This document shows positions 53,878 through 60,131 of a DNA stretch of 64,000 nucleotides, piece by piece; within the stretch, counting starts at the first letter, position 1; each line of letters starts with the position of its first letter. A model generated the notes under the pieces. That model was not told where the DNA came from. It saw nothing but the letters and a program-made list of their open reading frames with translations, and searched no databases. Origin of the DNA: Salinibacter sp. 10B (lineage in GTDB: Bacteria; Bacteroidota; Rhodothermia; Rhodothermales; Salinibacteraceae). The translations under genes were made by a program, and so were the position numbers. The stretch is taken from the NCBI RefSeq assembly GCF_002954405.1, contig NZ_MQWC01000004.1, forward strand, positions 3,762,613 to 3,826,612, read 5' to 3'.

Positions 53878-55257
53878 ATGCCTACCATTCTCGTGGTTGA
53901 CGACGAGGCGAGCATCCGCCGTACGCTTCGAGAGATTCTGGAGTACGAAGACTTCGAGGTGGAAGAGGCCGTAGATGGGGAGGAGGCCCTGGCGTCTATT
54001 CAGGAAGATTCGTACGACCTCGTGCTTCTGGACGTGAAGATGCCGAAGGTGGACGGCATGGAGGTCCTGGAAGAAATTGCTGGGCAGGCGACGGATCTTC
54101 CCGTCGTCATGATCAGTGGTCACGGCACCATTGAGACCGCCGTGGAGGCCACGAAGCTTGGGGCCTACGACTTCATCGAGAAGCCGCCCGATTTGAACCG
54201 GCTGCTGGTGACGGTCCGCAACGCGATGGACCACGGCGAGCTGGAGGTGAAAAACCGTCGCATGCGGCAGACCCTCAGCGAGCAGAGCACGGGAGATCTG
54301 CCGCCGATTATTGGAGAGAGTGACGCCATTGCTGAAATTAAGGATACCATCGAACGAGTGGCGCCCACGGAGGCCCGGGTGCTCATCTCCGGGGAAAATG
54401 GGACCGGAAAGGAACTGGTGGCAAAATGGCTCCATCACAAGTCCGCACGGGCCGAGGAGCCGATGGTCGAGGTGAACTGTGCGGCTATTCCGAGTGAGCT
54501 GATCGAGAGTGAGCTCTTTGGGCATGAGGAGGGAGCGTTTACCGGGGCCACCCAGCAGCGCATCGGAAAATTTGAACAGGCACACGAAGGCACTCTTTTT
54601 CTTGACGAGATTGGCGACATGAGCCTCTCGGCACAGGCCAAGGTGCTTCGGGTCTTACAGGAAGACAAAATCGAGCGGGTGGGGGGGGAGCGGAGCATTA
54701 ACGTGGACGTGCGCGTGGTGGCTGCCACGAACAAGGATTTGCTAGCGGAAATTGAAGAGGGCAATTTCCGAGAGGATCTGTACCATCGGGTGGGCGTCAT
54801 CCTCATCGAGGTTCCTCCCCTGCGTCGGCGCCGCGAAGATATACCGCTTCTCACGAAGCATGGGGCGGAGCGCTTGGCGCGTCGAAACGGCCTTCCCCCT
54901 AAATCTTTCTCTGACGAGGCGCTGGAGCGGCTACAGCGATACGAGTGGCGGGGAAACGTGCGGGAGCTCTACAACGTGATTGAGCGATTGCTTATTCTAG
55001 TGGAGGGAGAAACGATCGAAGCACCGGATGTGGATCAGTTCGTTCAGCCCGGCACGCGCTCCGGCGGTCCTGCCCAAGAACTGATCAGCGCCTACGACGA
55101 CTTCACGCAGGCGCGCGATCAGTTCGAGAAACGGTTCATCGAACGAAAGCTCGACGAGCACGACTGGAACGTGAGCCAGACGGCCGAAACGATCGGCATT
55201 CAGCGCTCGCATCTGTACAACAAGCTGAACAAGTACGGTATTGAGCGCGAGGACTAA
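53878..55257 (+). CDS. Sigma-54-dependent response regulator (NtrC-like)
   Basis: A 459-residue activator with three parts. A receiver has phospho-accepting Asp52 (LLDVKMPKVDG). An AAA+ domain has Walker A GENGTGKE (172-179) and the GAFTGA sigma-54 contact loop (219-224). A Fis-type helix-turn-helix sits at the end (NVSQTAETIGIQRSHLYNKL). It turns on sigma-54 promoters when phosphorylated. No histidine kinase is adjacent; the stand-alone DHp protein at 58413 is about 3 kb away. Target genes are not known. Confidence 0.93.
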   Translation: MPTILVVDDEASIRRTLREILEYEDFEVEEAVDGEEALASIQEDSYDLVLLDVKMPKVDGMEVLEEIAGQATDLPVVMISGHGTIETAVEATKLGAYDFIEKPPDLNRLLVTVRNAMDHGELEVKNRRMRQTLSEQSTGDLPPIIGESDAIAEIKDTIERVAPTEARVLISGENGTGKELVAKWLHHKSARAEEPMVEVNCAAIPSELIESELFGHEEGAFTGATQQRIGKFEQAHEGTLFLDEIGDMSLSAQAKVLRVLQEDKIERVGGERSINVDVRVVAATNKDLLAEIEEGNFREDLYHRVGVILIEVPPLRRRREDIPLLTKHGAERLARRNGLPPKSFSDEALERLQRYEWRGNVRELYNVIERLLILVEGETIEAPDVDQFVQPGTRSGGPAQELISAYDDFTQARDQFEKRFIERKLDEHDWNVSQTAETIGIQRSHLYNKLNKYGIERED

Positions 55258-56830: not shown

Positions 56831-57469
56831 ATGGCCTTCATTGATTCTCTCCCCCTTTTTCCACTTAACCTCGTGTTGTATCCAGGGGAGCATCTTCCCC
56901 TGCACATCTTTGAGGAGCGGTACAAGGAGCTGACGCAGTATTGCCTCGACCACGACGTGTCCTTCGGAATCGTTCGTGCGAAGGACGACGCGGTGGTCGA
57001 GGTTGGAACGACAGCACGGATCCAAGACGTGGTTACACGCTACGATGATGGGCGGATGGACGTCGTGGTTGAAGGAGAGGAGCGCTTCCGGCTTTTGGAA
57101 ATTCACGACGAGAAAAGTTATTATACGGCGGATGTCGTGCTGCTTGAGGAAGAGGAACAGCCGGTAGAGTTGGATCTCAAGGAGCGCGTCATCACCCAAC
57201 ACATGAAGCTCCTCGAACTGGTCGGCCGAACGGTGCGCCCCGACCTATACGAGAATGAGGAGTACCTGTCGTACGTGCTTGCTCAGAATGCCGCGCTTGA
57301 GGAAGAACAGAAACAAGAGTTGTTGGAATTGTCGAGTGAGAGTGAGCGGATTCGGTACCTGATTCGTCACTTTGAAACCCTCATTCCACGGGTGGAAAAG
57401 AAGGAAGATGTCCATCGTCGCATCCGCTCGAACGGACACTTCAAAGACTTTCCGCCAGAGGAGGTCTGA
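56831..57469 (+). CDS. LON substrate-binding domain protein
   Basis: A 212-residue stand-alone LON N-terminal (LON-SB) domain protein. The pattern PLFPLNLVLYPGEHLPLHIFEERY (quoted as PLFPLNLVLYPGEHLPLHIF, residues 8-27) is diagnostic. There is no AAA+ or protease part, as in several bacterial YcaP-like or cereblon-type LON-SB proteins. Role is unknown; a substrate or peptide binder is likely. The C-terminal half is helical (ALEEEQKQELLELSSESERI). Confidence 0.88.
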   Translation: MAFIDSLPLFPLNLVLYPGEHLPLHIFEERYKELTQYCLDHDVSFGIVRAKDDAVVEVGTTARIQDVVTRYDDGRMDVVVEGEERFRLLEIHDEKSYYTADVVLLEEEEQPVELDLKERVITQHMKLLELVGRTVRPDLYENEEYLSYVLAQNAALEEEQKQELLELSSESERIRYLIRHFETLIPRVEKKEDVHRRIRSNGHFKDFPPEEV

Positions 57470-57513
57470 GCGGCCGCCGCCTACGTGTGCTCGTATTACA
57501 AATCGACATTGCC

Positions 57514-58371
57514 ATGCCCGACATCGGCCCGTATTCGCTTTACTCGATAGAAACCGGTCGATTCGGGTTGGACGGCGGCGCGATGTTTGGGATCGTCCCG
57601 AAGCCGCTGTGGTCAAAGCGCATTGCCCCGGACGAGAGCAACCGCATCCCGCTTCACATGCGGTGTCTTCTGTTGGAGGGACCGAACCGCTTGATTCTCG
57701 TGGACACCGGCATTGGGGATGTATTTGCCGGGACGAAGTATGAAGACATCTACGCAGTTGATCACGAATACGCTACGCTCGAAGGCAGTTTGTCCGAGCA
57801 CGGGGTTTCGGCCGGCGAGGTGACCGATGTCATTCTTACGCATCTTCACTTCGATCATTGTGGCGGGGCCACCCGGGCCACAGAAGACGGGCGGAAGGTA
57901 CGGTTTCCGAATGCTACGTACCACGTTCAGAAAGAGCACTGGCAGTGGGCGCAGGACCCGAACCCGAAAGAGCAAGGATCTTTTCTGCGACGAGCATTGG
58001 CCCCGATCAACGACGCGGGACGACTCCATCTCCTCGAGGGCGGGCAAACGCTCTTTCCTGGGATCACTGTCGAGTGTGTTCATGGACACACGCAGGCCCA
58101 GCAGATTGTGCGCGTTTCCGACCCGGACACCACACTTGTCTTCGTTGCTGACTTGCTTCCCACGACTCATCATCTGGCTCCAACCTGGACGATGGCGTAC
58201 GACGTACGTCCTCTACAAACGATGGAGGAAAAGGGAGCGTTTTTGCGCAGGGCTGTGAATGAGGAATGGAACTTGTTCTTTGAACACGATCCCGACGTCG
58301 CCGTCGGGTGCCCCCGAGAGACGGACCGTGGCATGCAAATTGAGGATCCACGCCCTCTCCCGGACTTGTAG
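57514..58371 (+). CDS. MBL-fold metallo-hydrolase
   Basis: A 285-residue hydrolase of the metallo-beta-lactamase fold, starting at the ATG at 57514 (a GTG at 57487 is an alternative). The metal site is visible: THLHFDHCGG (HxHxDH, about residue 113), a later His in VHGHTQAQ, Asp in VFVADLLP, and another His in EHDPDVAVG. Two-metal lactonases, phosphodiesterases and quorum-quenching enzymes share this pattern. Substrate is unknown. Its neighbours do not suggest one. Confidence 0.86.
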   Translation: MPDIGPYSLYSIETGRFGLDGGAMFGIVPKPLWSKRIAPDESNRIPLHMRCLLLEGPNRLILVDTGIGDVFAGTKYEDIYAVDHEYATLEGSLSEHGVSAGEVTDVILTHLHFDHCGGATRATEDGRKVRFPNATYHVQKEHWQWAQDPNPKEQGSFLRRALAPINDAGRLHLLEGGQTLFPGITVECVHGHTQAQQIVRVSDPDTTLVFVADLLPTTHHLAPTWTMAYDVRPLQTMEEKGAFLRRAVNEEWNLFFEHDPDVAVGCPRETDRGMQIEDPRPLPDL

Positions 58372-58412
58372 ATGACATTCGTTGAACCTTTCTGTTGCTA
58401 CGTCCTTTTGCC

Positions 58413-58664
58413 ATGAGTGAATCCAATGGTGCTGAATCGCTAGATGAGATGCACGAAACGGTGTCGTCCGTCTATCACGATCTCAACAATCCCCTCTCCA
58501 TTATTTCCGGCAACGCGCAGTTTCTTCTCGAAATTAGCCGAGAAGAAGACCTGGACGAGCAGTTCGTGTCGTCTGCTCAGGATATCAAAGAGGCAGCCCA
58601 GCGAATGGCAGATTCCCTGCACCGGCTCACTCGGTTGAAAGAGCAGATGGAGGAAGAAATTTAG
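58413..58664 (+). CDS. Stand-alone histidine-kinase DHp (HisKA-like) domain protein
   Basis: An 83-residue acidic protein starting at the ATG at 58413. It is essentially one helix-hairpin domain with the phospho-acceptor segment VYHDLNNPLSIISGNAQFLL, in which His22 corresponds to the phosphorylated His of HisKA. The C-terminal half is a second helix (AQRMADSLHRLTRLKEQME). There is no ATP-binding (HATPase_c) domain here or downstream. It could relay phosphate, dimerise with a kinase, or inhibit one. A function is not known. Confidence 0.72.
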   Translation: MSESNGAESLDEMHETVSSVYHDLNNPLSIISGNAQFLLEISREEDLDEQFVSSAQDIKEAAQRMADSLHRLTRLKEQMEEEI

Positions 58665-58982: not shown

Positions 58983-60131
58983 ATGCGCACTCCTCAGACT
59001 CGTGTAGTTCAGTGGACTGTTTCCCTTGCTGCTCTCTTCCTTCTTGCGTGTGGGATGCCCCATGCGTCACAGGCACAGCTTGGAGAATCCACGGCCCTTT
59101 TCCTTCGCATCGAGCCTGACAGCCGATCAGCAGGGATGGGCAATGCCGGGGTTGCGGTAGCCGACAATGCTAACGCTATGTTCTGGAATCCCTCTGGCCT
59201 TGCCTTCCAGACCAACACGCAGGTTGGCATCACGCACGCCAACTGGCTTCCGGAATTCGACGCAGGCCTGTTTTACGAATACCTCGTGGGAACGTACCAC
59301 GTTGAAGGCGTGGGCACCTTTGGGGGGAGCGTGACCTACCTGAATCTTGGGGAGATTGAGATTCGGAACAGCGAAGGCATTTCGCAAGGCACCTACAACT
59401 CCTACGAACTTGCCGTTGGAGTCTCTTACGGGTATCGGGTGTCGGACCGTCTCGGCCTTGGCACCTCTCTTCGGACCATCTACTCGAAACTTGCCCCGTC
59501 GGACAATCAGGGGGACAGCGGGACGGCGGCGACGATTGCCGGGGATCTTTCCGCTTTGTACCGAACGGCTCCTTTCTCGATTGGCGGATCAGACGCGACC
59601 TTCTCGGCCGGAGCAAATCTCGCCAACATGGGGGGACGGATGCAGTATCGAGAAGTGAAGCAGGCCCTGCCGATGAACCTTCGCTTTGGGTATGCCCTGA
59701 CCGTCGATTTCGACGAGTACAATTCGCTGACCTTTGCAAACGACTTTAACAAAGAGCTGGTCAATGTCGAACAGCAGGTGTCCGGCGAGGACACGAGTTA
59801 CGTAGCCGATCCGTTCTATGAGGCACTCTTTAGCTCATGGGGCACGGCACGAGGGCAGCAGGACGTGAACGACGAGGCTGCACAACTCAGCCTGATTGAG
59901 CAGTTTACGGTCGGAGCAGGTCTCGAGTACTGGTACAGTGATCTTTTTGCCCTTCGGACGGGATACTTCTACGAGGACCCGAAAAACGGGAACCGACAAT
60001 TCTTGAATTTTGGGGCTGGCCTCCGTTACAATATCGTCGGCGTAGACATCTCGTACATCTACACGCTTGAGGAAAATAGTCCCCTCGCGAATACACTACG
60101 ATTCTCGCTTCTGTTTGAGTTTCAGAAATGA
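58983..60131 (+). CDS. porV: PorV-like T9SS outer-membrane protein
   Basis: A 382-residue outer-membrane beta-barrel protein of the PorV/LptO type. A signal peptide (about 1-31) ends near QAQ. The early segment RSAGMGNAGVAVADNANAMFWNPSGLAF, quoted as GMGNAGVAVADNANAMFWNP (50-69), is diagnostic of PorV and PorQ relatives. Beta strands follow up to a C-terminal Phe-rich SLLFEFQK. PorV shuttles T9SS cargo to the attachment complex. The T9SS-type protease at 3254-5656 is a plausible cargo. PorQ is an alternative family, but length and the GMGNAG motif fit PorV better. Confidence 0.85.
   Translation: MRTPQTRVVQWTVSLAALFLLACGMPHASQAQLGESTALFLRIEPDSRSAGMGNAGVAVADNANAMFWNPSGLAFQTNTQVGITHANWLPEFDAGLFYEYLVGTYHVEGVGTFGGSVTYLNLGEIEIRNSEGISQGTYNSYELAVGVSYGYRVSDRLGLGTSLRTIYSKLAPSDNQGDSGTAATIAGDLSALYRTAPFSIGGSDATFSAGANLANMGGRMQYREVKQALPMNLRFGYALTVDFDEYNSLTFANDFNKELVNVEQQVSGEDTSYVADPFYEALFSSWGTARGQQDVNDEAAQLSLIEQFTVGAGLEYWYSDLFALRTGYFYEDPKNGNRQFLNFGAGLRYNIVGVDISYIYTLEENSPLANTLRFSLLFEFQK

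Follow-up and report, generated by a model that had tools for sequence, protein, structure and literature searches.

An 83-residue protein encoded in the window, the 64,000-nucleotide stretch of Salinibacter sp. 10B DNA that we analyzed, is a bare histidine phospho-acceptor (DHp) hairpin that stands without a kinase domain. Its gene is under purifying selection. Comparison with related loci suggests that the protein is what remains of a system that once comprised a kinase and a receiver-DHp protein, and because this likely origin can be read from the relatives, the finding is more interesting than first noted. Our leading, still tentative proposal, based on sequence comparison, is that the target of this kinase-free DHp is a response regulator, which it most likely dephosphorylates, and that the DHp descends from a unit of a PAS kinase and a receiver-DHp protein.

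Results and Discussion

The features of the locus are collected in Table 1. In what follows, codes with L denote loci, G genomes and f families; f1 is the window's own family and G000 its own genome.

Table 1. Features at and around the stand-alone DHp gene (window positions).
Feature	Position	Strand	Evidence
Stand-alone DHp (HisKA) mini-protein, 83 aa	58413..58664	+	ORF (ATG to stop), PF00512, order-wide profile, AF2 hairpin
Phospho-acceptor His22 codon	58476..58478	+	Sequence; His in 68/69 family members
Asn26 codon (His+4, phosphatase-type position)	58488..58490	+	Asn in 66/69
Gly33-Gln36 codons (GNAQ, His+11 to +14), among the most conserved helix 1 stretches	58509..58520	+	Gly 69/69, Asn(+12) 65/69
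MBL-fold hydrolase, directly upstream, frequent neighbor	57487..58371	+	PF00753, 67.9 bits; start probably ATG 57514
Stand-alone LON substrate-binding domain protein, frequent neighbor	56831..57469	+	PF02190, 110 bits
PorV, type IX secretion outer-membrane protein	58983..60131	+	NF033710, 293 bits, cut-off 250
NtrC-type sigma-54 response regulator, no adjacent kinase; wider old neighborhood	53878..55257	+	Profile matches

The sequence-only reading had described a protein made almost wholly of one HisKA hairpin around His22, without a kinase domain, and the profile searches against HisKA and Hpt that it proposed bear this out. Pfam HisKA (PF00512) covers residues 15–73 with an E-value of 2.3e-9 and 37.6 bits, above the cut-off of 26.9, while neither HATPase_c nor Hpt (PF01627) is among the Pfam matches at E ≤ 1; a SPOB_a match stays below its cut-off. 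The HisKA hallmarks, a His in helix 1 and a Pro at +5 from it, are both present. The reading frame has an in-frame TTG at 58395, and its ATG falls at the same alignment position in 8/8 loci (L031–L038). AlphaFold2 folds the chain into a two-helix hairpin (helices 3–44 and 49–82; pLDDT 90.3, pTM 0.72), with which the protein ends; no further domain follows. Foldseek lists the DHp domains of ZraS (TMq 0.74), ERS1 (TMq 0.77), CpxA and GacS with RetS, together with other helical proteins, none of these matches to the short query having an E-value below 0.001. A sequence search against solved structures gave weak matches only, with a designed coiled coil at the top, followed by the histidine kinase 4jas (E 5e-4).

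The protein is exceptional in its own genome. Of 32 HisKA matches, paired by hand with HATPase_c from their coordinates, 30 share their frame with a HATPase_c match, one belongs to an interrupted gene (C4:2097102) and one, the DHp of the window, has none. The interrupted gene is a histidine kinase (G000:C4:2097102-2097757, L193) with HATPase matches in two frames, one of them carrying an internal TAG. An ordinary kinase overlooked through a frameshift can be set aside for the DHp itself: its genome holds no HATPase match near it, and the own-family loci gave the same result with a four-seed profile. Nor did a source kinase emerge from within the genome, where the family profile scores the best of 31 HisKA regions at only 27 bits.

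We then looked at how widely the gene is kept. A search with the window protein (P0001) gave matches at E ≤ 0.01 in 75 of 100 genomes, its own included, some of them ordinary kinases. A family profile built from 36 sequences (A1; strong match, E ≤ 2.3e-16) matched 87 of 244 class genomes, counting 132 genomes without printed rows as misses; these are 85 of the 114 genomes labeled as belonging to the order Rhodothermales plus both f21 genomes (G228 and G229). All 27 genomes of the own family, Salinibacteraceae, contain the gene; in G006 (L047) the His is replaced by Glu. With profile A1, 29 genomes of the order lack it, namely 25 of the families f4, f14 and f15 together with G086, G089, G234 and G237. 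In the loci L155–L158 of DHp-lacking families, MBL is followed by porU, and none of the 36 queries detected a DHp between them. A phylum-wide draw of 394 genomes gave 36 matches at E ≤ 1e-8, of which 31 fall in the order or in f21; the other five are weak, three of them in long frames. The closest homologues among the matches listed come from a Salinivenus MAG (94% identity) and then from other Salinivenus and Salinibacter, Salinivenus being a member of the same family and order. The dN/dS values against the window gene are 0.029 for L031 and 0.10–0.12 for L032, L033, L035, L036 and L038, the six pairs that could be estimated, since L034 and L037 are saturated. Within L033–L035 we obtained 0.04–0.07; the near-identical pair L036/L038 gave 0.86 from almost no changes. 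The sequence-only reading had named absence from relatives, an unconserved frame and an insignificant HisKA match as grounds against it. The first applies in part, because f4, f14 and f15 are without the gene while most of the order keeps it; the frame is kept across most of the order, and the HisKA match is significant.

The gene also lives in a conserved neighborhood. From best-match lists, a non-random sample, we collected 70 loci and compared 69 after the duplicate L089 was dropped. In 59 of the 69, MBL and/or LON lies at most 3.5 kb upstream and, on the same strand, PorU or PorV at most 7 kb downstream. PorU/PorV occurs without MBL/LON in L066 and L163; the Rhodothermus-type loci L055 and L091 have MBL/LON and no PorU/PorV downstream despite sufficient room; L090, L101 and L115 have MBL/LON and end too soon downstream; and L084, L159 and L160 show neither, L084 also ending too soon. 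PorU or PorV within 7 kb downstream is thereby found in 61 of the 69 loci and is absent from L055, L091, L159 and L160. Many relatives from other families carry porU between DHp and porV, and PorU was confirmed in 3/3 loci tested (963–975 bits, cut-off 420). In the window's genome, 35 matches to type IX sorting tails (E ≤ 0.001) accompany PorV and PorX. We infer a possible link of the DHp to type IX secretion. Against it stand L055 and L091, which have a DHp without porU/porV, and the own family, which has lost canonical PorU yet retained the DHp: only one of its 27 genomes (G019), several of which are incomplete, has PorU above the cut-off. PorU is thus not a required partner.

Two response regulators were also considered as partners. 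The NtrC-like regulator that the sequence-only reading placed about 3 kb away is indeed there, its gene ending about 3.2 kb upstream of the DHp, and such a gene is found near the DHp in loci of f1, f2, f3, f9 and f13. The link that was guessed at is unsupported: the gene also occurs in L158, an f15 locus that lacks a DHp, and LON/MBL and porU/porV accompany the DHp more constantly. PorX is encoded in the own genome (NF052313, 709.7 bits), the four key positions of its receiver are identical in 38/38 sequences, and PorX-type PglZ is above the cut-off in 98 of 100 genomes; it occurs in families without DHp as well. With PorV, LON and the PorX effector as controls, the distances of DHp and PorX receiver across 31 genomes gave a partial correlation of 0.004 (Mantel p 0.497), so that PorX as a partner receives no support from this test, which is weak for a 70-residue protein. 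The same test against DHp gave 0.151 for the PorX effector (meant as negative control), −0.151 for PorV and 0.605 for LON. This last value, obtained for LON_sb (56831-57469 and relatives) with PorV and PorX controlled, could reflect a rate effect or a functional link.

Where the protein probably comes from is visible in the relatives. L160 of f21 encodes a 766-aa PAS-PAS-HisKA-HATPase_c kinase whose gene overlaps that of a 236-aa REC-DHp protein. L159 contains a like pair, the two kinases being 70% identical, and the receivers of both loci retain their key residues as read from the alignment. In the same order as the window, L084 (f6) has a PAS-HisKA-HATPase_c kinase (HATPase_c 74.3 bits), cut at its N-terminus by the contig end, followed by a REC-DHp protein (REC 62.1 bits). 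The DHp genes of f13 and f5 are immediately preceded by a gene for an apparently membrane-bound PAS protein. This sensor is homologous to the f21 kinase (hhalign 99.6%, sensor 26–520 on kinase 11–500; based on only two kinase sequences, with blastp roughly in register) and stops about where HisKA would start. Pfam scans of 16 truncated f5/f13 sensors found HisKA or HATPase_c in none; no single PAS model matches more than 11 of them, and L058 is without a Pfam match. The sensor profile (E ≤ 1e-10) matches 25 of 100 genomes and none of the own family. Twenty strong matches adjoin a DHp on the same contig, two of them with internal stops (G062 and G097); the match in G031, which is the full kinase of L084, is split over two contigs, one with the DHp; G085 has two partial pieces beside the DHp; and those in G033, G041 and G086 are weak and away from it. 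When the family loci were searched with a HATPase profile built from four seeds (E ≤ 1e-3), only three of them, L084, L159 and L160, had a match roughly 1 kb or less from the DHp and on its strand; one further match, in L043, lies 4.5 kb away. Because L159 and L160 are among the seeds, L084 is the independent hit.

The receiver appears to fade along with the kinase. In several proteins, the region N-terminal to the DHp aligns with receivers and has lost the key residues. The Pfam receiver match of L041 (47.1 bits) exceeds the cut-off, those of L045 and L048 are weak, and L042, L055, L065 and L069 have none; in the alignment set, Response_reg matches 6/12 proteins at E ≤ 0.1, HisKA 12/12 and HATPase_c 0/12. 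The model of the L045 pseudo-receiver-DHp is of moderate quality (pLDDT 77.5, pTM 0.55), and its structural matches include receivers and LvrB. The loci can be arranged as a series: kinase with REC-DHp (f6, f21), PAS sensor with pseudo-REC-DHp (f13), PAS sensor with DHp (f5), pseudo-REC-DHp alone (loci of f3, f7, f8, f9 and some of f1), and finally DHp alone (the window and others), the window's genus retaining the DHp only. We infer from this series the probable order in which kinase, receiver and sensor were lost.

Which activity survived may be read from the residues. Among 69 DHp sequences, His is present in 68, Asn at +4 in 66, Pro at +5 in 67, Gly at +11 in 69 and Asn at +12 in 65, while an acid at +1 is found in 57. 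Thr or Asn occupies +4 in 67 of them. Most members retain the +1 acid, including the window protein, which carries the complete HisKA phosphatase signature (E/D at +1, T/N at +4) as Asp23 and Asn26; twelve have lost it. In the kinases of the own genome, an acid stands at +1 in 28/29, position +4 is Thr in 21, Asn in 5, Glu in 2 and Ser in 1, and +12 is Phe in 11, Tyr in 4, His in 3 and other residues in the rest (n=24). The loss of the +1 acid does not differ significantly between the family and these kinases (Fisher p 0.10). The p value falls to 0.009 once the comparison includes 35 outside long-frame proteins (34 Glu, 1 Ala), presumed kinases read by eye from a motif-selected list of the best 80 loci; this value overstates the difference since the sequences are related and kinship was ignored. 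In HisKA kinases, according to the available text of Willett & Kirby (PMC3510030), the +1 acid is needed for kinase and not for phosphatase activity, while the Thr/Asn at +4 is needed for phosphatase activity and not for kinase activity or transfer. The family thus keeps the phosphatase-type +4 and loosens the kinase-type +1, a residue pattern that leans toward phosphatase. Two members deviate further. L070 has lost the NNP motif, and in L047:7604-7861 (G006, same genus) Glu replaces the phospho-acceptor His in a frame that is otherwise open and has a normal neighborhood.

We picture an ancestral unit in which a membrane PAS histidine kinase was paired with a receiver-DHp protein and of which the DHp domain would have survived. 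Because the mini-protein has no ATPase, it is not expected to phosphorylate itself. It would form a dimeric four-helix bundle presenting His22 and Asn26, and a conserved response regulator would dock on the face bearing the SGNAQ stretch. Positions +7 to +14 reportedly face the regulator in HK853-RR468, and the conservation of this stretch here suggests one conserved partner. Phosphate would then most likely be removed from the docked regulator by a HisKA-type phosphatase reaction. In f5 and f13, the truncated PAS sensor would switch the DHp in trans, whereas in the window's genus the DHp would be unswitched or controlled by its amount. A phosphatase is favored by the retention of His (68/69) and Asn+4 (66/69) against only 57/69 for the +1 acid. 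EnvZ lacking its catalytic domain reportedly had phosphatase activity in the hands of Zhu et al. in 2000; that protein is a laboratory construct, whereas the DHp of the window occurs alone in nature. Against a phosphatase, nucleotide in the ATPase domain is said, in the available part of PMC7005713, to stimulate HisKA phosphatase activity, and the window DHp is without this domain. The conservation of Asn+4 may be structural instead.

The same evidence can be read in other ways. A histidine phosphotransfer protein of the Spo0B/ChpT kind, in which His22 would receive its phosphate from another kinase or from a phosphorylated receiver and hand it on to a response regulator, is a rather doubtful alternative. 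The retained His (68/69) and the apparent descent from a receiver-DHp protein beside a kinase, an arrangement in keeping with a relay, would fit it, as does the independence of transfer from the +4 Asn in the available text of PMC3510030. Yet transfer leaves the near-invariant Asn unexplained, the receiver that would feed the relay is degenerate or absent in many lineages, and the HATPase profile links no donor kinase to the own-family loci. It is unlikely that the DHp is a non-catalytic adaptor or inhibitor, which would heterodimerize with the DHp of a complete kinase or mask a response regulator. RetS acts on GacS in this manner, DHp hairpins can dimerize, and one of the structural matches is 7n0e, a DHp complex of RetS and GacS. 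Such a function does not need the near-invariance of His and Asn+4, however, and the strong conservation of helix 1 from +8 to +14 would fit a single docked regulator better than many kinases.

The sequence-only reading had also considered half of a split kinase, whose His22 would be phosphorylated by an ATPase domain in trans, with sensor, DHp and ATPase as separate proteins. Sensor and DHp are separate genes in f5 and f13, and Mycobacterium Rv0600c/Rv0601c is said to be a split DHp/ATPase pair. Both of these are described in one literature passage as histidine kinases cooperating with TcrA. The results turn against this idea: none of the 16 truncated sensors contains HisKA or HATPase_c, the HATPase profile matches near a DHp only in full-kinase loci, with no ATPase-only partner at E ≤ 1e-3, and the +1 acid of kinase chemistry is lost in 12/69 members. 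A working split kinase is therefore very improbable. Simple decay into a functionless remnant would agree with a system that seems to shrink along lineages and with the His-to-Glu change in L047 and the missing NNP motif in L070. Given dN/dS values of 0.03–0.12, the presence of the gene in 27/27 own-family genomes and its persistence where kinase, sensor and receiver are gone, we regard decay as improbable in the extreme.

The proposed stand-alone DHp phosphatase is best placed beside known systems. Spo0B and ChpT use a DHp-type hairpin without kinase activity of their own, and both have a C-terminal ATPase-like domain, which the 83-aa window DHp is missing. The available text of PMC3433190 describes ChpT as dimeric and kinase-like. 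The hybrid regulator LvrB of Leptospira (REC-DHp-CA) resembles the REC-DHp relatives in having REC and then DHp in one chain. LvrB retains its catalytic ATPase domain, whereas these relatives have none. Its structure 8vc9 is the top match of the pseudo-receiver-DHp model (E 5e-5, TMq only 0.38), and NCBIfam ranks an LvrB-type family first for the f21 REC-DHp, with a score far below the cut-off. In archaea, proteins with HisKA and no HATPase are listed by P2CS as a "possible incomplete histidine kinase", for example the REC-PAS/GAF-HisKA protein AF_1472 (PMC5847659). They are alike in having HisKA with the conserved His and no HATPase; the available text of Galperin et al. (PMC5847659) proposes phosphatase or phosphotransfer activity for them and reports no tested role. 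Sensor or receiver domains accompany the archaeal HisKA, whereas here the hairpin is bare and bacterial, with intermediates leading to a kinase pair and a conserved neighborhood. As far as that source goes, HATPase-less HisKA itself is already described in archaea, and what is new here is the bare hairpin, its occurrence in bacteria and a visible likely route of reduction. Our literature search of open-licence PMC papers found no description of this DHp family.

Further candidates for HATPase-less HisKA proteins turned up beside the family. GAF-HisKA proteins without HATPase_c are encoded at L122:5085-5951 and L143:938-1792 (Zixibacteriota) and at L113:6446-7312, with receiver domains near the genes in L122 and L143; L125 and L145 resemble them by sequence only. 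L143 and L145 have Lys after the His position, the His itself being lost in L143. Two proteins from other Bacteroidota families end too soon for a HATPase domain as judged by their length: an apparently membrane-anchored HisKA-like protein with His followed by Arg (L203:5825-6433, 202 aa) and a receiver-HisKA-like protein (L204:6063-6776, 237 aa).

Conclusion

In summary, the DHp mini-protein of Salinibacter is a HisKA hairpin maintained without its own kinase. It is possible, although we hold this with considerable doubt, that Rhodothermales contain a pathway without a kinase, dismantled stepwise to a PAS sensor plus DHp or to the DHp alone, in which a stand-alone regulator phosphatase persists beside type IX genes. 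If so, the retained DHp would signal by controlled dephosphorylation without a dedicated kinase. As the related lineages preserve stages ranging between a kinase pair and a bare DHp, the activity that was kept after loss of the kinase can be read from the residues and is testable with small proteins. The system could thus show whether a lone DHp is a working regulator in cells.
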